A stretch of DNA of 23,381 bases from a virus: IMG/VR virus record IMGVR_UViG_3300014501_000078, positions 1-23,381 of that record. One strand, given 5' to 3'. The position numbers were made by a program, and so were the translations under genes. Under the pieces are notes generated by a model. It was not told where the DNA came from, searched no databases, and was given only the letters and a program-made list of their open reading frames with translations. Of the stretch, positions 1 through 19,648 are shown in pieces (the stretch's first letter is position 1; each line of letters begins with the position of its first letter).

Positions 1-834
1 CATGTTGCCTGTCTCGAACTCACCCTCAAGACCGCGCTCGACTTTCTTTCGCACGAAGTGCTTGAGACCGTCTTGAACGTCCGTCTTGATGTACCAGCCG
101 ATTGGGTCCGTGAGATAGTGATTCACGCTGACGCCGCCCGCATACGTCCCGATGGACTTGAGAGCATTGATGTCGTTGTCGCCGGTCGCCGGACGGAAGT
201 CCGAGAACAGCAAGCGCTGTGCTACGTACTTGTTGCCGTTCGGAACGATCAGCCGTTTCGGCTTCGCAGCGATGCGAATACCGCGCTCGTCAACCCACAA
301 GCCAATCGCGATGTCGGCCGCTTCAAGGGCTGATTCGCAAAGGTCGGGCTGAGTCGAGAACATGTTCGCCTGCACGCCGCCGCCCCAGATCGGGTGGCTG
401 AGCGAGAACAGTGCAGCACCGTCGCCGCCAGGATAGGACGTGCTGAACCCGTTGTTCAGAACGTTTGCGCCCGAGACTTCCTTGGTGTTCTGCAAACCAC
501 GAGCCAGCGACTTGCTGTACTTGCCCGCGATTGAACCGTAGAGGCCGTCCTCTTCCGCTTCCTGCGTAATGGCAAACGCCAACGCAACCGTGTTGTGGAT
601 GTACCGAGCGACGTAGGACTCTGCGCCTTCGTCGAACGACACGCCTGCGCCTTCGGCTTTCACCGGGGCGGTGCCGAGACCGGCCATCAACACATCTTCC
701 TCATACGCCTTGACAGACGTATTGATGTCGAATATGTCGCGCCACTCTTCGGGATAGCGGTTGTACTCCATACCGAACACGGTGTTCAGTCCGAGCTGCA
801 ACTGCTTCTTGAACAGACTGCGATTCATTGCCAT
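1..834 (-). CDS. Major capsid protein, HK97-fold, gpT-like (3' end cut by window edge)
   Basis: This gene reads leftwards and has no stop before base 1, so only the first 278 residues are seen. The product is recognisable as a phage major capsid protein of the Mu gpT-like/HK97-fold kind. It opens with a short helical N-terminus (SLFKKQLQLGLNTVFGMEY), has a PVKAEGAGVSFDEGAES segment near residue 60, and a LFSLSHPIWGG segment typical of this family. The visible end (GLEGEFETGNM) resembles the region before the last 50-70 residues of relatives. Hundreds of copies would build the icosahedral shell. The ATG at 834 follows a purine-rich AGAGAAGAG site; a second ATG two codons in is possible. It is the last visible gene of the scaffold-structural-capsid series. 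Family call from memory of sequence patterns; function confident, exact family moderate. Confidence 0.88.
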   Translation of the reverse strand, partial: MAMNRSLFKKQLQLGLNTVFGMEYNRYPEEWRDIFDINTSVKAYEEDVLMAGLGTAPVKAEGAGVSFDEGAESYVARYIHNTVALAFAITQEAEEDGLYGSIAGKYSKSLARGLQNTKEVSGANVLNNGFSTSYPGGDGAALFSLSHPIWGGGVQANMFSTQPDLCESALEAADIAIGLWVDERGIRIAAKPKRLIVPNGNKYVAQRLLFSDFRPATGDNDINALKSIGTYAGGVSVNHYLTDPIGWYIKTDVQDGLKHFVRKKVERGLEGEFETGNM

Positions 835-867
835 TGTAGTTCTCTTCTCTCTTTTGTTGGTTGCTGC

Positions 868-1482
868 TTAGACCAGGGTGTGCGCCCACTGCGCGATCAG
901 GTCGGACTGCACGATCAGGAACTCAGCCTCAGTGTATCCACCGAAGTTGACCGGATCGTTGCCAGGGTTGCCCGTCAGGTTGTACAGGAACAACGAGACG
1001 TTCTTGTTGGCTGTCTTCGTGTAGGTCGCGAAGTTCGCGTACTCGGCTGACATGCCAGTGAGGGTCGAGCCAGAAGACTGCCCAGCAGGAGCGTAGTACG
1101 CATTGACATCGGTCGCGGCGAACGTCGTGGCGCTGACGCCAGAGACCATCGCTTTGAAGATAATCAACGGGTCGTCATACACGTAGGCCGTGATGACTGT
1201 GCCAGCGAGGATCGCCGTGCTGGCAACCCACATCTTCTCGAACCGGGTGTTACCGGCCGAGTCAACGAACTCGCAACCCATGAACACGCCGCGCACGAAA
1301 AGTGACGTGGTGTTCAGTATGATGTTGCGGGCTGCGGCGGACGCCATCGAGACCAAGTCGCCAGCGAAAATGTTCGAGGCGTAGGCCGATGCGATGGTGT
1401 ACGAAGCTGCGCGGATTACGCCACCATTCTGGTGACGGACGGGTTTGAAGCCGTAGGGGCTGTTCGGAAGCGTGCTTGCCAT
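868..1482 (-). CDS. Putative capsid decoration or head structural protein
   Basis: A 204-residue protein that opens with SPYGFKPVRHQNGGVIRAA, a signature seen at the start of small head proteins encoded just upstream of gpT-like capsid proteins in many environmental phages. The body (residues 35-200) is Ser/Thr/Ala/Gly-rich and predicted to be mostly beta strand, with no catalytic motif, signal peptide or membrane segment. Position between scaffold-side genes and the major capsid protein supports a virion role such as a shell-stabilising or decoration protein. The ATG at 1482 has an AAGGA site about ten bases upstream. It could instead be a minor structural protein; no function is experimentally established that I can name. 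Confidence 0.72.
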   Translation of the reverse strand: MASTLPNSPYGFKPVRHQNGGVIRAASYTIASAYASNIFAGDLVSMASAAARNIILNTTSLFVRGVFMGCEFVDSAGNTRFEKMWVASTAILAGTVITAYVYDDPLIIFKAMVSGVSATTFAATDVNAYYAPAGQSSGSTLTGMSAEYANFATYTKTANKNVSLFLYNLTGNPGNDPVNFGGYTEAEFLIVQSDLIAQWAHTLV

Positions 1483-1525
1483 GATGTCTCAATCCTTTTT
1501 GTTGAAGGACGGAGACGCCCAGATG

Positions 1526-2152
1526 TTAGTCCTCTGAGTCTGCCCCCCGCCCCGTTTTTACTCTCTGTCGCCGGTCGGCCACGATGGCACCGTATCCCTG
1601 GCGTTCTTCTTTGTGGATGTCCCGTTCGATGGCTTCCGTTTGCACGGCCGTCTGTTGACGGTAGAACTTCGCACGCTGTCGTGCGATGCGTACCGGCATC
1701 TCGCACAGGATCAAACCTTCCACGCCAATGACAGTGTTCCCTGCGTAAGCGACGGTGGGCGGTAAGTCTTCCTTCGGAACACTATCAATGTTCCTAGGCT
1801 GCCATCCTTCACGCATGGCTCGCGACCAGTTCTGCGGGTCTTGCTGACCGCGCGAGGCTGTCCGAACCAATCTCTGAACGAACCCTGGTCGGGGGCCGGG
1901 CATCTCAAGGTTCCCTGGATCTCTCCAGTTCATCTGATCCTGCTCGTTCTCGACCACGTCCACGTTGCCGTGGACTTGCTCATCACCAGTGTCAACTTCA
2001 TGAGTCTCAACTGTCTGAGCACGTTTACTTGTCTGTGCGGCACCAGCAGCTTTGATCTGATTGATGCGCTTCTGCAGCTCACCGATGTCGTCCGTGTCGA
2101 TCTCTTCGTTCGGGACGAACTCGGGAACCTCTACATATCCTTTCTCACTCAT
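1526..2152 (-). CDS. Conserved virion-associated protein of unknown function
   Basis: A 208-residue acidic then basic protein. Residues 1-80 are Glu/Asp/Gln-rich and look disordered. The middle holds a pattern resembling a domain found in head-region genes of many phages (GFVQRLVRTASRG then NWSRAMREGWQPR, about residues 91-120), and a C-terminal helix (about 155-190, RIARQRAKFYRQQ) could form a coil. It sits directly after the scaffold-like gene, whose TGA overlaps this ATG (ATGA), and an AGGAG site lies 8 bases upstream within that gene, so the two are likely co-translated. A structural or assembly role is inferred from place; nothing indicates an enzyme. Confidence 0.7.
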   Translation of the reverse strand: MSEKGYVEVPEFVPNEEIDTDDIGELQKRINQIKAAGAAQTSKRAQTVETHEVDTGDEQVHGNVDVVENEQDQMNWRDPGNLEMPGPRPGFVQRLVRTASRGQQDPQNWSRAMREGWQPRNIDSVPKEDLPPTVAYAGNTVIGVEGLILCEMPVRIARQRAKFYRQQTAVQTEAIERDIHKEERQGYGAIVADRRQRVKTGRGADSED

Positions 2153-3171
2153 GACTGCTTCTCCTTGCGTGCATCAGCCTGCTTATTGCGGGCGAACTCG
2201 CGAAGAACTCTCGGGTCCGTGGTGTCTTGCCCCATGCTCTGGAGCATCTTGATCTCGTCTTTGGTGATGGTAACCTTGTTAGGGTTACTGTTCCGTACCT
2301 CCATCGAGCTTCCACCGCGCACACCGTTGCTGCCGACTCCACCAGCGCCGGACTTGCCGCCGCGCTTCGACTTCAGATACTCTGGGTTCACCTTGTCGTG
2401 GAACCGCTCGTCGAGGATCTTCGTCAGACGAGTGTAGTACTCGTCGCTGTTTTGGTTATGCCCCATTTTGTAGAGCAACTGGTCGGCTGCCAAGGCAGCC
2501 TCTTTGAACAAGGGATCGTTACCGTACGCGGGGTGCGCCGTGATCCAGGCTTGCGCCTTCGGATTGACTACCGTCGCCTTCGCCGGGGTCTGCTTCGCCG
2601 CAGCGCGAGCTGACTCCAGCTTGTCGTTGCGTGACTTGATGTTGGCCTTGACATCAGTGATCTGATCATCAACTTCAACCTCAGCAGCCGTGTCGCCCTC
2701 CTCTTTGGCCTTGATCTTCCTTGCCTTGAGAGTGTCGAGCTTCGTGCGATCCTTCGTGTTTTCCAGATCCGCAGCGCGGGTCTGTTCTTCCACATCAACT
2801 CGCTGGGTGAGCTGGCCTACCTGTGCTTCCAGGCGGCGGCTGCGCTCCTCAGCTTCCTCACGCATGCGACGCTCACGTCCGAGGCGTTCCTCGAATGTGT
2901 CCTTTTGCTCGTCCTCGTTGCCACCTTCATCCTTGCGAGTGGTTTCGACTTCGAAGGTCTCATCAGCGTTGACTTCCTCCGGGGCATCAACTCGTTTGTC
3001 GATGTCGCCGAACTGGTCAGCCTTACCTGCATTTGGATTGCGTGGAGCTTCGTTGATGATCGTTGCGCCGGTTGCGTCCTGCCGTACCTCCGGTTGGAGG
3101 TCCACTTGGGCACCTTCGACGGTGTCCTCGGAATGCAGGTCGTTGAAGCTGTGGTCGTAAGTCTTGGGCAC
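2149..3171 (-). CDS. Capsid assembly scaffolding-like protein
   Basis: A 340-residue highly charged protein. Residues 1-85 are acidic and probably disordered; about 88-190 form a long heptad-rich coiled coil rich in Glu, Arg and Lys; about 206-255 carry a pattern common in phage scaffolds (W..AHPAYGNDPLFKEAA, then a Gly-Asn-rich turn and EYY..L..IL); the last 70 residues are Gly/Lys-rich, where scaffolds often bind coat protein. It lies two genes before the major capsid protein, as expected. The start is GTG at 3171, chosen because AAGGA sits seven bases upstream. No protease motif is seen, so a protease-scaffold fusion is unlikely. The function is inferred from charge pattern, coil and place. 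Confidence 0.72.
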   Translation of the reverse strand: MPKTYDHSFNDLHSEDTVEGAQVDLQPEVRQDATGATIINEAPRNPNAGKADQFGDIDKRVDAPEEVNADETFEVETTRKDEGGNEDEQKDTFEERLGRERRMREEAEERSRRLEAQVGQLTQRVDVEEQTRAADLENTKDRTKLDTLKARKIKAKEEGDTAAEVEVDDQITDVKANIKSRNDKLESARAAAKQTPAKATVVNPKAQAWITAHPAYGNDPLFKEAALAADQLLYKMGHNQNSDEYYTRLTKILDERFHDKVNPEYLKSKRGGKSGAGGVGSNGVRGGSSMEVRNSNPNKVTITKDEIKMLQSMGQDTTDPRVLREFARNKQADARKEKQS

Positions 3172-3230
3172 TTTGAGTCCTTATTCTTGTTCGTTACGCC
3201 TCTGGCTACAGCCTGAGTGGGTATGTACCT

Positions 3231-3258
3231 ATCATATCACAGGTTTTGTACGATCTAA
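3231..3258 (-). promoter_or_regulatory. Weak candidate sigma70-type promoter before the scaffold/capsid genes
   Basis: On the minus strand a TTAGAT (3258-3253) and a TATGAT (3236-3231) are separated by 16 bases. The -10 is five of six matches to consensus, the -35 only three of six. It lies 60 bases upstream of the scaffold GTG, overlapping the end of the frameshifted endonuclease gene, where a separate transcript for the highly expressed head genes would be useful. Seen motif; promoter activity is inference. Confidence 0.3.
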
Positions 3259-3592
3259 CACGCGCCCGAGGTATGCCACTAGCAAGAGTACAGCAGCCTG
3301 CGTATCTCCTAGCATCCCGCACGCTCTGTTGCACTTACCGCAGAGCCATCCACGGAACATCGTGGTCATGGTCTAAATCCAAGCGTTTCTTGCGCCCGGT
3401 TGGTATCTGACCGCATGACTCGCAAGAGGACGGCATGGGACGAGTTGGCTCTGGGTAGCCGTTTGTTTTACGATGAGACTTGAGTACCTTATCGGGGTTG
3501 GCCGCTTGCCAACGCAGCACTCCTTCTAGCTGCTTCTTACGCCCGTGAGCTGACTCACGGTACTTCTTTTTTGCAGCAGCGTTCCCGCTCAT
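3232..3592 (-). pseudogene. Recombination endonuclease VII-like (HNH) gene with a +1 frameshift
   Basis: Starting at ATG 3592 (ATGA overlap with the SLOG gene), frame one encodes a basic N-terminus, a zinc pair (CESCG) and the catalytic LDLDHDHD motif, then stops at 3335. In the next frame, immediately after the DHDH, the second half of the same family appears without a stop to 3232: FRGWLCGKCNRACGMLGD, holding the second zinc pair and the conserved RGWLC..CN block. Together they form one endonuclease VII/Holliday-junction-resolvase-like zinc nuclease of about 119 residues. A TAG in the second frame near 3366 limits the shift to a roughly 30-base stretch. Relatives usually have about four residues between the last His and FRG, here one, so a deletion of about 8 bases is likelier than a single-base error. 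Programmed frameshifting cannot be excluded. Confidence 0.8.
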
Positions 3593-3990
3593 ACGCGGAC
3601 AATATGTAGGTATAATCCATGCGCGCCTGCTCTGTTCATCATCGACAGCGACCCCCTGCTCTTCCCATCCCAGAAACAAATACAAGCTCCCCCTTCCGCG
3701 CGCAGAGCCATCTGCTCATTGCGGTACGGACCAGCACGCGGGCCGTACTTAGACCAGTCCGCGAGCACCTTCACAACGATGACCTTGTTGTCTACCGCCC
3801 AGGTCTCGCCCATGCGGTCTGGGCCGCGACATCCGCCCGAGTAGATTGCTTGTGGCTTGCGGATGTTCGACAGCCGATCCAGCTCGTCCGTCAGGCGCTG
3901 GCGGCCGTTGAAGTAGCGCGAACCACAGACAACCCACACGTTGGTGAGTAGGTGGATTGGCCAGACGAAGTCTAGATCCTCTTGCCTCAT
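3589..3990 (-). CDS. SLOG-superfamily DUF2493 (YspA/YAcAr-like) protein
   Basis: A 133-residue Rossmann-like protein. It has the family's first strand and loop VVCGSRYF (residues 20-27), the nucleotide-binding YSGGCRGPDRMGE (50-62), and a later GPRAGPYRNEQM helix start followed by a strand with ICFWDGKSRG. These are the landmarks of the DUF2493 branch of SLOG/cpYpsA proteins, thought to bind nucleotide-derived ligands; no reaction is established. The ATG at 3990 is chosen over a GTG at 4011 because its ATGA overlaps the stop of the GroES-like gene, as for most neighbours. The gene is coupled the same way to the endonuclease VII remnant downstream. Nucleotide or ADP-ribose-type ligand binding is inference from the fold. 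Confidence 0.8.
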   Translation of the reverse strand: MRQEDLDFVWPIHLLTNVWVVCGSRYFNGRQRLTDELDRLSNIRKPQAIYSGGCRGPDRMGETWAVDNKVIVVKVLADWSKYGPRAGPYRNEQMALRAEGGACICFWDGKSRGSLSMMNRAGAHGLYLHIVRV

Positions 3991-4457
3991 TTTCCAGCTA
4001 TCCAAACCCACAAGCGAGAAGGATCAGGAACGAGCGCGATGACGTCAGTCTCTTTGATGGTCTTCAGGGTGTCGAGCTGTGCTACTCCGTCTGCGTCAAC
4101 GATCACGTCGTTGGTGCAGTGCTCTGAGCCGCAGTGCTTCGGGTACGCGACCCACATGCCTACCGTCAGCTGATCGGGATCGTCGGCAAACCTAAGGCCC
4201 GACGTGGTGACAGCTTTACCAACCAAGCCTCCGAGCGCCAGTATCTGTCCGGTCTCATTGAATACAGCCTGAGCTTTCTGGTCGTTCTCGGTAAGGGCGA
4301 TGCTTCCGATCTTAGTTCTCGGGCGATACGGTCGCACCAGGACGAACCACTTGATAGGTCGTAGGGCGAGCGGGAGGTTACCATGCGTCGGCTGCGATGT
4401 CGTCGGAGCTGATTCCTCTACGTCCTCGGGCAGCAGGTCTGTCGTCAGTAGGCTCAT
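3987..4457 (-). CDS. GroES-like co-chaperonin protein
   Basis: A 156-residue protein with a cpn10-like beta domain from about residue 30: LRPIKWFVLVRPYRPR corresponds to the first strands (GroES has V.V...R), followed by a mobile-loop-like segment, GQILALGG (GroES G.V...G), TVGMWVAYPKHCG (GroES GD.V.F), and a C-terminal ETDVIALV. Phage co-chaperonins replace or remodel host GroES to fold capsid protein in the GroEL cavity; presence next to head genes fits. Residues 1-28 are a disordered extension. The start overlaps the previous gene by 80 bases, long for this genome, but GGAG lies nine bases upstream and no nearer in-frame start exists. Membership is judged from pattern; a looser cpn10-fold phage protein is the alternative. 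Confidence 0.72.
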   Translation of the reverse strand: MSLLTTDLLPEDVEESAPTTSQPTHGNLPLALRPIKWFVLVRPYRPRTKIGSIALTENDQKAQAVFNETGQILALGGLVGKAVTTSGLRFADDPDQLTVGMWVAYPKHCGSEHCTNDVIVDADGVAQLDTLKTIKETDVIALVPDPSRLWVWIAGK

Positions 4458-9152: not shown

Positions 9153-9584
9153 CTAGAGCGACGGGTCTTGGTCGTCAGCGACTGACGTGGGGCCTTGGAC
9201 GCCCTGGGGGTTACCGGCCGAGCCGAGCAGCTTGTTCGTCTTAGTCTTCTGACGGTTTAGAGCCGCAGCCGCCTTCGCGAGCTTGGGCCCGCCGAGTGCC
9301 GGGCCTTGCTGAGTCACGTTCGGCATCGGAGCCTTGAACGCGCCAGGGCGGGCCGACTTCACCGTGGGGGTGATCTTCTTGCCGCTTAAAATCGGATTAG
9401 CAGGAACCCCAAGCCCCTGTAAAGCTGGAGCTTTAGGCATAGATCCTGGAACAAAACCTTTCGGAGCTTTCGGCGGTTGACGCGGAGCCCCAACAACAAA
9501 TTGATTCAGCGATTTACGCGGCCCTTTGGATGGGCCACCCGGAGCTACCGGTAAATTCATTGACTTCCTGGCACGAGACTGCAT
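9153..9584 (-). CDS. Basic Pro/Ala/Gly-rich low-complexity protein, unknown function
   Basis: A 143-residue protein, about one third Pro, Lys and Gly or Ala, with no expected fold except one short helix (KLAKAAAALNRQK, near residue 105). Phrases such as PPKAP, PGSMPKAP and KKITPTVKSARPGAF repeat loosely. The ATG at 9584 has an AGGGGA site seven bases upstream, so it is well expressed from its own site although the HNH gene overlaps it by 71 bases. Basic disordered proteins near terminase may bind DNA or the terminase; that is inference. I do not recognise a family. Confidence 0.7.
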   Translation of the reverse strand: MQSRARKSMNLPVAPGGPSKGPRKSLNQFVVGAPRQPPKAPKGFVPGSMPKAPALQGLGVPANPILSGKKITPTVKSARPGAFKAPMPNVTQQGPALGGPKLAKAAAALNRQKTKTNKLLGSAGNPQGVQGPTSVADDQDPSL

Positions 9585-10008
9585 ATTTATTCCCCTTTTC
9601 TCTGTTCTTTTTCGGCGTCAAGTACTGCAGATTCCAGGAAACATGTAACCCTGACACCATCTTCCCCTGCATAGGAACGATGTGATCTACCTCAAAACCA
9701 TCTGGGCACGCATCGTAGTATAACCTCATCAGCCACTGCGGGCACCAGACTGCAGACCTCTGCAGCTTGGCGGCGTGCCTCCTGGCAGACCTAAAGACTG
9801 CATCTGACGATGGCCGAGCCTTATCGTAAGCCCTAAGATGATCCCTGTTCTTACCCCTCCACGTAGCCGTATACGACAGGCATAGCGCGGTGTTCCTGGA
9901 GCGGTACAGTACACGGTACGCCGCGTCACAAGGCCGACAGCGGCCAAGAGGATCGCGTACAGTGGGTCTCAGTCGCTCTGTAGACCCGCATTTAACGCAA
10001 GGTTTCAT
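9514..10008 (-). CDS. HNH endonuclease, probably free-standing homing type
   Basis: A 164-residue nuclease. The N-terminus has zinc pairs CVKCG and CRPCD (residues 4-7 and about 24-27). The HNH core is at about 100-140: FEVDHIVPMQG, then LHVSWNLQYLT and N.EKGNKY, where the His of DHI, the Asn of WNLQ and the final Asn give the catalytic finger. This matches phage HNH proteins found beside terminases, some of which aid packaging and some of which are mobile. The homology ends near GNKY; the last 25 residues run into the next gene in another frame, a sign that insertion or deletion extended the frame. ATG at 10008 follows a 23-base gap without a clear ribosome site. Confidence 0.85.
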   Translation of the reverse strand: MKPCVKCGSTERLRPTVRDPLGRCRPCDAAYRVLYRSRNTALCLSYTATWRGKNRDHLRAYDKARPSSDAVFRSARRHAAKLQRSAVWCPQWLMRLYYDACPDGFEVDHIVPMQGKMVSGLHVSWNLQYLTPKKNREKGNKYAVSCQEVNEFTGSSGWPIQRAA

Positions 10009-10031: not shown

Positions 10032-10637
10032 TTACGATAAGTCACCGTGGGCGCTGCCTTCGTCAGTGCTGCTCCCTTTGCGGGCATCACTGCCTGAAAC
10101 GCGGGCGCTTTGATCGGTCTTGGCTGTTTCGGCTTGTTTGCCATGCTCTATTTTAGCAGACTTCCTGGCCTTGGCTTTCCGCAGGGTCATCGTTACCACC
10201 GGGGGAGCGGTGTACGGGTCGATCAAACAGGCGACCTCTACCGCGCGCTTTGCGCTCGCGCCCATGTGCATGGCACCCATCGCCGCCTTCGCGCCAGATC
10301 CTACCGCGTAGAACTCGTTGAGCACCTTCTCTCCTCTGCACCATTTATCAAATTCCCAGAGCCCGTCATTCTGTAGAACGAGCACGGTGAACTCAGCGTC
10401 TCCGTGAATAAGGTTCTCAGGAGCTTCCTTACCCGAGCCCAGCCAGTCAACGAAGACAAGACCTGAAAACGTCTCGCCTGCAGTAGCCAGGATAACCTCT
10501 TGCTGCACCCCGTTGACCAGGATGGACTTGCGAAACAGCTTCTCACTCAGGAACACGCGCGCACCACCGGCATCGGTGTGCGTGGTACTGCGACTGTCCG
10601 CAGCTAGGATGCCTGATCGGTACGCCACGGTAGTCAT
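10032..10637 (-). CDS. HslV/proteasome-beta-like Ntn hydrolase
   Basis: A 201-residue protein of the 20S proteasome/HslV peptidase superfamily. After removal of Met, the N-terminus is Thr-Thr, as in HslV. AADSR (12-16) holds the Asp matching HslV D17, and SEKLFRK (31-37) the Lys matching K33; ILATAGETFSG (49-59) matches the HslV strand with AGG, and FYAVGSGAKAAMGAM (109-123) the IGSGG motif. All catalytic residues appear present. HslV is about 175 residues; the extra 45 at the C-terminus are Lys/Ser/Glu-rich and disordered. No HslU unfoldase is in the window, so it may use host unfoldases or work alone. ATG at 10637 overlaps the HD gene stop (ATGA). Peptidase activity is inferred. Confidence 0.82.
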   Translation of the reverse strand: MTTVAYRSGILAADSRSTTHTDAGGARVFLSEKLFRKSILVNGVQQEVILATAGETFSGLVFVDWLGSGKEAPENLIHGDAEFTVLVLQNDGLWEFDKWCRGEKVLNEFYAVGSGAKAAMGAMHMGASAKRAVEVACLIDPYTAPPVVTMTLRKAKARKSAKIEHGKQAETAKTDQSARVSGSDARKGSSTDEGSAHGDLS

Positions 10638-11416: not shown

Positions 11417-11845
11417 TCAATAACCAGCGCCGTTGCGATGTTGCTGAATAGCACTTAGGAACTCTTCCAACTGCGCAGTAGAGACTGACTCCTGTTCAGA
11501 GCGCACCATAGCCTCATAATCCAGCGTCTGCTCTGAGTCGCGCTCCTCAGCTTCGATGTCGAGCTGCAGTTGCGCCGACAGCCGCCAGATGGCCTTGGCA
11601 AGGTGCCACTGACCGTCAGTGTCCTTCTTGATGCCCATACCATAATCGAACTGATGTCTGAATGCGGTGTTGAGTTGGTCAGTAGACTTCTCGCGAGCCC
11701 ATATAATCGTCTTACCTACGTTCTGATGCTGCGTGTTTCCCGCGACAGCAACACGCACAACCTCCAACCACGCCTTTGGAAAGTATCCGAAAAGAAAATC
11801 CCACAGCGGTAAAGCCTTTCTTGCGTCGTAATCTGTGGGAAGCAT
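11417..11845 (-). CDS. dATP/dGTP diphosphohydrolase-like protein (DUF5664, MazZ-like)
   Basis: A 142-residue all-helical protein of the dATP/dGTP diphosphohydrolase N-terminal family. Landmarks: YDARKALPLWDFLFGYFPKA (6-25), the EVVRVAVAGNTQH helix, a WAREKSTDQL segment, a RHQFD helix and DGQWHLAKAIWR (about 95-107), which place the usual acidic and His residues. Such enzymes cleave dATP or dGTP to the monophosphate and pyrophosphate; in Z-genome phages the relative MazZ shapes pools for 2-aminoadenine DNA. ATG at 11845 shares a base with the upstream TAA (TAATG) and has GAGG seven bases before; a longer frame from 11902 is ignored. Substrate is inferred from family. Confidence 0.8.
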   Translation of the reverse strand: MLPTDYDARKALPLWDFLFGYFPKAWLEVVRVAVAGNTQHQNVGKTIIWAREKSTDQLNTAFRHQFDYGMGIKKDTDGQWHLAKAIWRLSAQLQLDIEAEERDSEQTLDYEAMVRSEQESVSTAQLEEFLSAIQQHRNGAGY

Positions 11846-12600
11846 TACTCGTCCTCGGTGTGCGTAGTGAAGACACCAACATTGCGGCCAGCAGTAGACC
11901 ACACATGCTCATCTAGCTGCGTCTCGTCAGGCTTGTCGCCGTACTTGAACTCGTGAACAATCCCTGAGCAGAAGTCGCCCATGAAGACCTCATCGAGCCG
12001 ACCAAAGATCACGATGTACAGATCTTCTGGAGAGAAGAACTGGACCTTGTGCTTCGGTATGCACGGGTGAGTGTGGTACGTTGCAACCAGCTTCGCCTGA
12101 GCGGGTAGCTGACTGACGTCAATCGCAACATTGTCTCCTGAGTAGTTCGTGTTTGGATAGCTAACGATGAACTTGCCGTTCTCTAGCTTGCCGATTGCGC
12201 CGCCGTACTCATATACCTCGCTCTTCTCCTGGTCAATGAACTTCAGCGCATCTATAGCCGCAAGCTCAGGAGTATCGTATACGAAGACGTCTGACGCTGG
12301 CTGCGGTGCAGACTCAGGCTTGCCCTTGAAGTCATGCGACAGCACCACGCCCTTTGTCAGCTTCGCATGCAGACACGTAATCAGAAACTCTCCGTCCTGG
12401 TACGGTATAACCTCAGCGACGTGACCTTCGCAGAATCCATCCTTGCTGAACTTCTTGCGCCACCCCGCTTGGCTCTGAGGGTCGATGCCGGACGTGCGAT
12501 GCTGAAGTGGCGGAGTCACTTGAGCCGTCGAGAGGGGCACACCAGAAGCGGCGACCACTGACAGCTGAATGGCTGCAAGTAATATCCAAAGTCGTTTCAT
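11845..12600 (-). CDS. Exported JAMM/DUF4329-like metalloprotein
   Basis: A 251-residue protein with a Sec-type signal: MKR, then hydrophobic residues to about 24 with a cleavage-like GVPLSTA; no lipobox Cys. The mature part has an unknown N-terminal segment (30-105) and a JAB/JAMM-like domain of the DUF4329 type (about 108-220): EYGG (Glu131), YHTHP (His176, His178) and FSPED (Ser190, Asp193), the complete Glu, HxH, SxxD set for zinc. Cytosolic members are peptidases or isopeptidases; DUF4329 also occurs in toxin tails. Export suggests a periplasmic target. The start at 12600 is preferred over 12606 because GGAG is then six bases away, not adjacent. Activity is inferred. Confidence 0.75.
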   Translation of the reverse strand: MKRLWILLAAIQLSVVAASGVPLSTAQVTPPLQHRTSGIDPQSQAGWRKKFSKDGFCEGHVAEVIPYQDGEFLITCLHAKLTKGVVLSHDFKGKPESAPQPASDVFVYDTPELAAIDALKFIDQEKSEVYEYGGAIGKLENGKFIVSYPNTNYSGDNVAIDVSQLPAQAKLVATYHTHPCIPKHKVQFFSPEDLYIVIFGRLDEVFMGDFCSGIVHEFKYGDKPDETQLDEHVWSTAGRNVGVFTTHTEDE

Positions 12601-12633
12601 CTGCATCTCCAGGTTAAGGACAGTCGGAGTGTA

Positions 12634-13539: not shown

Positions 13540-14324
13540 TTCTGTTCCTTAGTTGAAGATAGTACTGCCTGGGGGCTGGGTTCATGAGCCTGCGGGAGCC
13601 CTGCAGGAACTACTTCCGCTGTTGCGCCCGTCTTCCCAGCCACCAGGACTTCAGACTTTACATCAATCGCTGTCACTTGACTAATCATGCTCGACGCCTT
13701 CAGCATCAGTGCTCGCAGCTGCATCAGCTCTGGGGTAGATAGCCTACTCAGCATAGCATGGTCCTGCGCCTCACCGCCGTGAACGCCCTGCGGCAGCGCA
13801 GCTTTGCCGTTCTCGAACATGCCCATCGTGCGACCCAGTAGTTTCTTGGCTTCGAGCCTGTTGGGGAGCTTGACGTTCGCCAGCACCCAGCGCCCTGGAT
13901 CTTTCTTCTCCGGGTCGTTCGGGTCAGGCTTCCACTTCGGGTCTGACGTCCACATCAGCTCGTAGGATTCTACAACATCAAGCATCTCTCGCGTGCACTC
14001 CTCAAGCGTGCGAGGACGCCATACCCCGGTGTCTTCGTCGAGGATCTGGAAGTCCCTGTGATTCGCGTTGGCAAGCTTGGCGATGGACTTCTGCAGAGAG
14101 ATCACGCTCATCGATGAGTCGATGCGGATGTCTCTCTCCAGCATCACGATATATTCAAAACACGACTTGCGGATGCGTGTGGCGCTTGACGTGTTGTCTC
14201 CGTGCGTGGAGTAGCCGCCAGCAATCAGTGCTTTCTTCGGCGAGCGAGTCTTCACCCACTCGACTGAGAACGCGCGCTGCTGCTCAGTAAGATCTTCCAG
14301 ACCTGTGCCACGGCCTCGAATCAT
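13536..14324 (-). CDS. terS: Terminase small subunit
   Basis: A 262-residue protein whose N-terminus matches Terminase_2-type small subunits: LTEQQRAFSVEWVKTRSPK then ALIAGGYS and a Ser/Thr-rich turn (about residues 12-45), an HTH for binding the packaging site. Helices follow (residues 60-105, DSSMSVISLQKSIAKLANANHRDF). The middle contains a segment (KLPNRLEAKKLLGRTMGMF) also seen in small terminases. The C-terminus is Ala/Pro/Gln-rich. It would bind phage DNA and recruit the large subunit. ATG at 14324 gives an ATGA overlap with the VRR-NUC gene; the longer frame starts at TTG 14333. Unusually the large subunit is 4.4 kb away with eight genes between. Confidence 0.85.
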   Translation of the reverse strand: MIRGRGTGLEDLTEQQRAFSVEWVKTRSPKKALIAGGYSTHGDNTSSATRIRKSCFEYIVMLERDIRIDSSMSVISLQKSIAKLANANHRDFQILDEDTGVWRPRTLEECTREMLDVVESYELMWTSDPKWKPDPNDPEKKDPGRWVLANVKLPNRLEAKKLLGRTMGMFENGKAALPQGVHGGEAQDHAMLSRLSTPELMQLRALMLKASSMISQVTAIDVKSEVLVAGKTGATAEVVPAGLPQAHEPSPQAVLSSTKEQK

Positions 14325-14734
14325 TTGAACCAAAGCGGTTTTCCCCCAAGCATGTACTCTTCCCAGCTCGCAATCGCCTTGTCTTCCCCGGCGCAGATAT
14401 CAGCGTAGTACCCCTGCTTAAGCATGTTCCCGTGGAACACAATCTGCTCTGGGGATATAACGCCGCCTTTGGTGCGCTTCATTTCAAAGAACGCGCCGTG
14501 GTACTTGCCGACCGCGTGCGCGAAGAATAGATCGAACGCGCCGGGCAACAGACCCTGCTTCTTGAGGGAGTTCATGTACATCGCGCGCTTCCTGGCGTCT
14601 CCAGGGAGCTGAGTGCCGTTAGGTATCATCATGAGCAGATGGCCCCATCCCTTTGCACGCACGTGCTGAACGAATATATCCTGTGCGTCCTTCTCGACAC
14701 CAAGGGTGATTTTAGGCATGTACAAGAGTCGCAT
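14321..14734 (-). CDS. VRR-NUC domain nuclease
   Basis: A 137-residue PD-(D/E)xK-type nuclease. Landmarks: KDAQDIFVQHVRAKGW (helix one, with E14 just before it), MIPNG (36-40), LKKQGLLPGAFDLFF with D68, FFEMKR with E84 and K86, then SPEQIVF with Q97. That is the VRR-NUC order (E, then PNG, then PG.PDL, then E-x-K, then Q). It would cut branched or damaged DNA structures, in phages possibly resolving replication junctions before packaging; the next gene is the small terminase. ATG at 14734 shares one base with the upstream TGA (TGATG); a second ATG six codons in is possible. Activity is inferred. Confidence 0.85.
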   Translation of the reverse strand: MRLLYMPKITLGVEKDAQDIFVQHVRAKGWGHLLMMIPNGTQLPGDARKRAMYMNSLKKQGLLPGAFDLFFAHAVGKYHGAFFEMKRTKGGVISPEQIVFHGNMLKQGYYADICAGEDKAIASWEEYMLGGKPLWFK

Positions 14735-19140: not shown

Positions 19141-19235
19141 GATACCTTCCTGTTCCCAGTGAGGGTTGGGTCATACCACAAAAAAAACCCCATCGCCTGA
19201 TGACTCATCTCGTCTAGCGGGTTCAAGTAGTTCAA
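19137..19235 (-). CDS. Tiny 32-residue ORF with NYLNPLDE motif (TTG start)
   Basis: A 32-residue frame from TTG 19235, whose TTGA overlaps the JAMM gene stop, with AGGAG seven bases upstream. It ends in an ATGA overlap with the 51-residue gene. NYLNPLDEMS here matches NHLNPLDDIS at the start of that gene, which suggests duplication and real coding. A T8 tract (19187-19180) falls in the codons for FFL. Too small to assign; could also be a leader that couples translation. Confidence 0.42.
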   Translation of the reverse strand: MNYLNPLDEMSHQAMGFFLWYDPTLTGNRKVS

Positions 19236-19648
19236 AGAATTTCTCCTAGTGACAGCTGACCGTCCACAGAGTATGTGATCTTGTCGCGACCCGCAACAAA
19301 CTGGTGGATCTCGCCTGTGCTGGTGACGCCTATGTAGCTCGGCACATTCAGCTTCGCTGCGAGCTTGATGTCCGTTTCCGAGAAGTAGCTCGCAAGGCTT
19401 CCTACCCCAGGGTGAGTGTGAAACATCCCAGACATAGTACACGTCTTCGGCATAATGGCGTGCAGGTAGATCTCAGCTGTCTTGTGTGAGGTCATAGGCC
19501 GAGTGTAGTAAAACTTACCGTCACATTCGACCAGGAAGCCACCGTACTCAAACTTTTTTGAGAGCGGCATCGCTACGTGCTCGGCCGCGACGGCCGCGTC
19601 GTTCAGGGCGTCAAACGCATCAGCTAAGTTTACGTCAGTTGGTAGCAT
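19232..19648 (-). CDS. JAMM/DUF4329-like protein, cytosolic
   Basis: A 138-residue protein that is nearly all one JAB/JAMM-like domain of the DUF4329 kind: FEYGGFL with E34, MFHTHPG (H77, H79), and FSETD (S90, D93), followed by YIGVTSTGEIHQF, the usual last strand. It has no signal peptide, unlike its relative at 11845-12600, which shares the same E, HxH, SxxD order and spacing within one residue. This family can be a peptidase or isopeptidase; the target is unknown. ATG at 19648 has no clear ribosome site, but a TAGAAT six bases upstream would place transcription start at the A of the ATG. It is the first gene after a likely terminator. Confidence 0.78.
   Translation of the reverse strand: MLPTDVNLADAFDALNDAAVAAEHVAMPLSKKFEYGGFLVECDGKFYYTRPMTSHKTAEIYLHAIMPKTCTMSGMFHTHPGVGSLASYFSETDIKLAAKLNVPSYIGVTSTGEIHQFVAGRDKITYSVDGQLSLGEIL

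Follow-up and report, generated by a model that had tools for sequence, protein, structure and literature searches.

The window, a linear virus record of 23,381 bases analysed here in full, carries on its minus strand a gene of the endonuclease VII type that is divided between two reading frames at the turn of its active-site hairpin, and we regard this division as probably the mark of a real and recent inactivation of an accessory nuclease gene. The product would have been a small zinc-bound endonuclease with the DHHRN motif and a beta-beta-alpha-metal fold, and its gene stands alone between a YspA-like gene and a probable scaffold gene, in a slot that is empty or otherwise filled in the nearest relatives. 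We propose that the nuclease gene was gained by this lineage and later inactivated by a net loss of about eight bases, a figure taken from comparison with relatives, at the turn that joins the two hairpin strands of the active site; such a loss would have thrown the arginine, the second pair of cysteines and the asparagine that binds the metal into another frame.

One nuclease domain in two reading frames

The features of the region are as follows.

3335..3592, minus strand: upstream part of the split nuclease, from ATG 3592 through the CESC zinc cysteines and LDLDHDH to TAA 3337-3335; PF02945 24-48/50
3338..3372, minus strand: region of the +1 frame change; the last DHDH base is 3362, FRG runs from 3357, and 3361-3358 are four bases in place of the twelve of relatives
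3232..3372, minus strand: downstream part of the split nuclease in the +1 frame, with FRGWLCGKCN, a C-terminal helix and the stop 3234-3232; PF02945 48-80
3589..4011, minus strand: YspA/SLOG-like gene (PF10686), directly upstream of the split gene; 87% in L137 and 70% in L136, two of the relatives described below
3987..4457, minus strand: GroES-like gene, named by its likeness to CRP-902 gp61 (annotated GroES), with no Pfam or PHROG match
2149..3171, minus strand: probable scaffold gene downstream of the slot, its role suggested by its position

ATG 3592 opens the upstream frame and forms an ATGA overlap with the stop of the YspA/SLOG-like gene (4011..3589); the frame then passes through CESC and LDLDHDHD before it ends at TAA 3337-3335. 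The +1 frame is open from position 3372, just after TAG 3375-3373, and reads MTTMFRGWLCGKCNRACGMLGDT... until TGA 3234-3232; its FRGWLCGKCN holds the arginine and asparagine of the nuclease motif along with the second pair of cysteines. The stop at 3375-3373 therefore confines the frame change to 3372-3338, about 35 bases. A preliminary description of this DNA had also used a stop in the second frame to confine the shift, and in that it was correct, but it had placed the stop near 3366 and the length at about 30 bases. Its view of an endonuclease VII gene split directly after DHDH, with the halves in adjacent frames and the second shifted by +1, agreed fully with what we found, namely an LDLDHDHD frame followed by an FRGWLCGKCN frame with adjoining parts of PF02945; we add the minus strand, as no strand had been given.

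Against PF02945 the upstream half matched positions 24-48 of 82 with 16.3 bits, under the cut-off of 23.6, and the downstream half matched positions 48-80 of 82 with 26.0 bits, over it. A search of the whole record returned the same two places (E 1.4e-4 and 1.2e-6), and the read-through protein scored as a single domain with 41.9 bits, above the curated cut-off of 23.6. With a profile made from relatives only, the window being excluded, the halves were found at domain E values of 4.7e-6 and 4e-9, and nothing besides the two halves appeared at E <=1 when 2020 stop-free stretches, taken from the window and L135-L138, were searched. The whole-record and window-free profile searches ruled out chance similarity of the halves to endonuclease VII. 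When the window was aligned with 40 other rows, the motif order CX2C ... DHDH ... R ... CX2C-N was kept across both frames; as the pattern that selected the 40 rows itself demands DHDH, F, G, the downstream cysteines and N, only the first cysteine pair counts as independent agreement. The residues conserved between T4 endonuclease VII and F-CphI (the zinc cysteines, D40, H41, H43, R54 and N62 in T4 numbering, according to PMC6083498) were all present across the two frames. The full motif did not fall within a single open reading frame, being spread over two with the stop 3337-3335 in the first. A codon-usage score switched at about 3352 from favouring the upstream frame to favouring the +1 frame, a weak signal in which two upstream windows were slightly negative and the +1 scores were near zero.

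A scan of 3100-3700 for sigma-70-type promoters found none. On the plus strand, opposite the broken gene, we noted two terminator-like hairpins at 3543-3560 and 3446-3461, where shuffled sequences gave a mean of 0.5.

The shortened turn and its possible causes

In the window four bases lie between the end of DHDH (3362) and the start of FRG (3357). Relatives were collected with a DNA pattern of the form DHDH...FRG...CX2CN with 12-14 bases between, which covers FRG-type members only. It gave 69 matches in viral_contigs, 48 of them distinct at 80% identity; 40 of these 48 went into the alignment and model and eight were left out. The gap from DHDH to FRG was twelve bases in all 69, with every frame open on both sides, and at the second position of the turn 65 of the 69 had T, at the third 51 had G. 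Gaps of 1-11 bases were absent from both viral_contigs and genome_contigs (0 in each). By the twelve-base norm of the relatives the window is eight bases short, so that the earlier claim of a gap shorter than in relatives, fitting an 8-base deletion, was borne out (four versus twelve in 69/69); the four-residue turn that marks the FRG-type subset is lacking in the window.

The break could be an error of sequencing or assembly, the gene being intact in the phage, and we consider this unlikely while giving it real weight. As neither half has a further stop, decay is visible at one point only, and such a single lesion, in halves that are otherwise stop-free and retain the conserved residues, is what an error would produce; moreover, the window is a single metagenomic contig, and the junction had no second copy in viral_contigs. 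In contrast, tblastn aligned each of eleven further window genes, which total 3,176 residues, with L137 as one piece over most of its length, indicating that indels are not a general fault of the contig. Errors of this kind usually involve a single base, and a net change as large as the one here also counts against the explanation. We retain inactivation in the phage itself as the preferred reading. The upstream product, of 85 residues, ends 25 residues past its last cysteine, so that it would hold one half of the zinc site and would lack a complete active site, and nuclease activity would presumably have been lost.

That the split gene is functional, by a +1 frameshift or a separate downstream start that would yield a two-state or two-chain enzyme cut at the hairpin turn, appeared to us very unlikely. 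Taken by itself, a programmed +1 frameshift within the 35-base overlap, giving low levels of full-length nuclease, was slightly less probable still. For it speak the overlap of the frames in the right order, the scoring of the read-through protein as one domain, and an AlphaFold2 model of that protein (mean pLDDT 86.7, pTM 0.54) which matched Hpy99I (Z 5.7, rmsd 2.9, 66 aligned) and T4 endonuclease VII, both as 2qnf_A (Z 3.8, rmsd 4.5, 70 aligned) and as 1e7l_A (Z 3.5, rmsd 4.7, 69 aligned). Unrelated chains reached Z 3.9 in the same structure search, and the matches are no evidence for or against function; when solved structures were searched by sequence, the matches were only weak, with a best E of 0.39 and Hpy99I at 0.49. 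Against the frameshift, the turn of the +1 product would still be three residues shorter than the four-residue turn of 69/69 relatives, and the strands on either side of it were predicted to be only two residues long in the read-through protein, which was modelled alone. The RNA fold around the junction was no better than that of shuffled sequences (z -0.33), and no other short-gap copy occurred in viral_contigs or genome_contigs. We recognised no slippery site known to us at the frame overlap, which also counts against a programmed event. The frame arrangement was not conserved in relatives, the five genes of this type in related phages each occupying one frame. The earlier suggestion of a programmed, regulated nuclease thus found no support in RNA structure or in other short-gap copies, and we rejected programmed frameshifting as the main reading.

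Least probable of all was a two-chain nuclease, in which the downstream part, started at ATG 3369 or 3360, would pair with the upstream chain and rebuild the zinc site. The in-frame ATGs at these positions are present, and the split falls in the turn between strands, where a chain break should do least harm. However, no ribosome-binding site was visible by eye before ATG 3369 or 3360, the upstream stop lies some 23-32 bases beyond the internal ATGs, and all five intact genes of related phages encode one chain.

The slot and its homologues in related phages

The nearest relatives were found through TerL and the capsid protein (L142 is the same record as L137). TerL identity to the window was 83-85% for L135, L136 and L137 (85% for L137 and 83% for L136) and 92% over 121 residues for L138; L141 had 66% in TerL and 91% in the capsid. 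Among the matches listed, the best relative found through the portal protein had 36% identity. Of L135-L138 and L141, only L136, L137 and L141 reach the slot, and none of these three nearest relatives with a readable slot has endonuclease VII there. The interval from the YspA-like gene to the scaffold gene is 417 bases in the window; L137 has about 100 bases there, from the end of the YspA match at 14537 to the start of the scaffold match at 14636, and L136 about 220, the corresponding positions being 12381 and 12605. As the MAFFT DNA alignment of the slot was poor in the middle, gene ends and gap sizes alone were used. The endonuclease VII profile found nothing in the slot of L141. A PF02945 search over whole records was negative in all six TerL-relative records, including L136 and L137, in a run whose own controls were also silent; the same search detected PF02945 elsewhere, in the window record and in the portal-bearing set. 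The roughly 220 bases of the L136 slot (12382-12604) hold, by eye, a different small ORF, which makes the slot look variable.

In distant relatives the GroES-like gene served as the slot marker. Of the loci L141-L220 (L142 excluded), 49 had at least 4000 bases before the capsid gene, and four of these (L167, L169, L184 and L194) carried an intact endonuclease VII-type gene in the equivalent slot, 2.4-2.5 kb before the capsid gene and between GroES-like and scaffold-like genes; homology of the flanking genes was established for L194 only. The slot gene of L167 was only 30% identical to that of the window and belongs to a different subfamily, suggesting that the site took up such genes repeatedly or retains them in some lineages. 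Intact syntenic genes of distant relatives need not, then, be orthologues of the window gene. Five intact endonuclease VII-type genes were available from related phages, one of them of the window's subfamily.

The member of that subfamily, L167:160-567 (IMGVR_UViG_3300005253_000249), is 48% identical to the window gene over 86 residues and has in common with it the blocks PEPTR...CE.CG and LDLDH.H...FRGWLC.KCN. It differs in having one open frame, a normal four-residue turn and a longer N terminus, and in occupying a different genomic site, 8.4 kb ahead of the capsid gene; the L167 capsid is 62% identical to that of the window. Searches of viral_contigs with the upstream half and the read-through protein, as six peptide patterns, found no relative, and as they missed the L167 homologue their silence means little. 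In phages, blastn of the region found none and tblastn of the read-through domain found 8 records at 45-48% identity.

A remnant of an endonuclease VII-type gene was found at another site, L137 7865-8110. It is 48% identical over 33 residues to the upstream half of the window gene, reads G.PEPTRP.P..CE.CG without the catalytic core from DHDH to CX2C, and adjoins the 3' end of a different gene, whose counterpart in the window (10637..10032) is longer. It was detected by tblastn alone (E 1.2e-7 and 8e-6) and not by the window-free profile, and it was not seen in the corresponding stretches of L135 and L136, which are shorter.

PF02945 was also present in one of the 47 portal-bearing records searched (57 loci, ten left out), in a gene that is nested in a TerL intein and is not an orthologue. 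The TerL gene of this record (L060, IMGVR_UViG_3300047548_000089) occupies 537-3005 on the minus strand with an intein (PF14890) at residues 262-539; an endonuclease VII-type ORF of 203 residues at 1465-2076 on the same strand (PF02945, 69.3 bits) wholly overlaps the intein linker in another frame. When the codons of this ORF were shuffled 5000 times, the TerL frame stayed open in 180 cases. The arrangement looks like a nuclease gene lodged out of frame inside an intein.

Role of the intact gene

The preliminary description had proposed that the phage lost this resolvase, perhaps relying instead on two other nucleases, whose genes are the following.

14321..14734, minus strand: VRR-NUC-like gene, matching phrog_5702 (Holliday junction resolvase, E 1.7e-9); also in L136 and L137
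15365..15736, minus strand: Ref-like nuclease gene (PF16786, 21.8 bits, under the cut-off of 26.9); also in L137 and in L136, where the copy is cut by the contig end

The name VRR-NUC was carried over from the preliminary description, and the gene had no Pfam match at 0.1. Neither proposal was supported. No endonuclease VII lies in the slot of the three nearest relatives with a readable slot, and the read-through protein has its motif at residues 55-108 of 119, not at the N terminus as in the T4 gp49 type; according to PMC6083498, C-terminal motifs belong mostly to homing and restriction enzymes and N-terminal ones mostly to resolvases. The C-terminal motif and the lack of the gene in sister phages make an accessory nuclease, perhaps of the homing type, more likely than an essential resolvase as the role of the intact gene. 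Its presence in some and absence from other near genomes at the site is the pattern of a homing gene, and fits any accessory gene too. The VRR-NUC-like and Ref-like genes are both found in L136 and L137, which gave no endonuclease VII match, and so were not replacements made necessary by loss of the nuclease; they look like standing enzymes, not substitutes.

Elsewhere in the window, an HNH endonuclease gene (9514-10008, minus strand) lies near TerL and has homologues of 51% at the same place in L135 and L137, L136 having only a 36% match at a different place, which suggests another mobile nuclease. Two separate DUF4329 proteins are encoded at 11845-12606 and 19232-19648 on the minus strand, and the second also matches Prok-JAB.

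On the description in PMC6083498, the window gene resembles F-CphI and the DHHRN family in having CX2C, DHDH, an arginine, CX2C and an asparagine in the same order, in the motif lying in the C-terminal half of a small protein and in the gene standing alone, and differs in being in two frames with a turn eight bases short. With T4 endonuclease VII (gp49, PF02945) it shares the zinc and catalytic motif; in contrast, the T4 motif is N-terminal (PMC6083498), and the window's gene is missing from the slot in the nearest relatives. Arthrobacter phage Kaylissa gp41, annotated as endonuclease VII, is 48% identical over the domain, but is listed as one intact gene and lies beside DNA polymerase I in a genome of 44 kb. 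A split endonuclease VII gene is not described in the portions available of PMC6550527, PMC3029335, PMC8496362, PMC4626039, PMC6083498 and PMC3765158.

Most likely the split represents ordinary decay of an expendable nuclease gene that comes and goes, with no new mechanism, and it would not surprise specialists. The observations point to the acquisition and decay of a gene of the endonuclease VII type among uncultivated phages of a single group, in which we saw the slot devoid of the gene, the gene in broken form, intact copies, and a remnant elsewhere in one genome. Genes of this type commonly carry the label 'recombination endonuclease VII' or resolvase; the one described here seems to be dispensable, which calls for caution in annotation.
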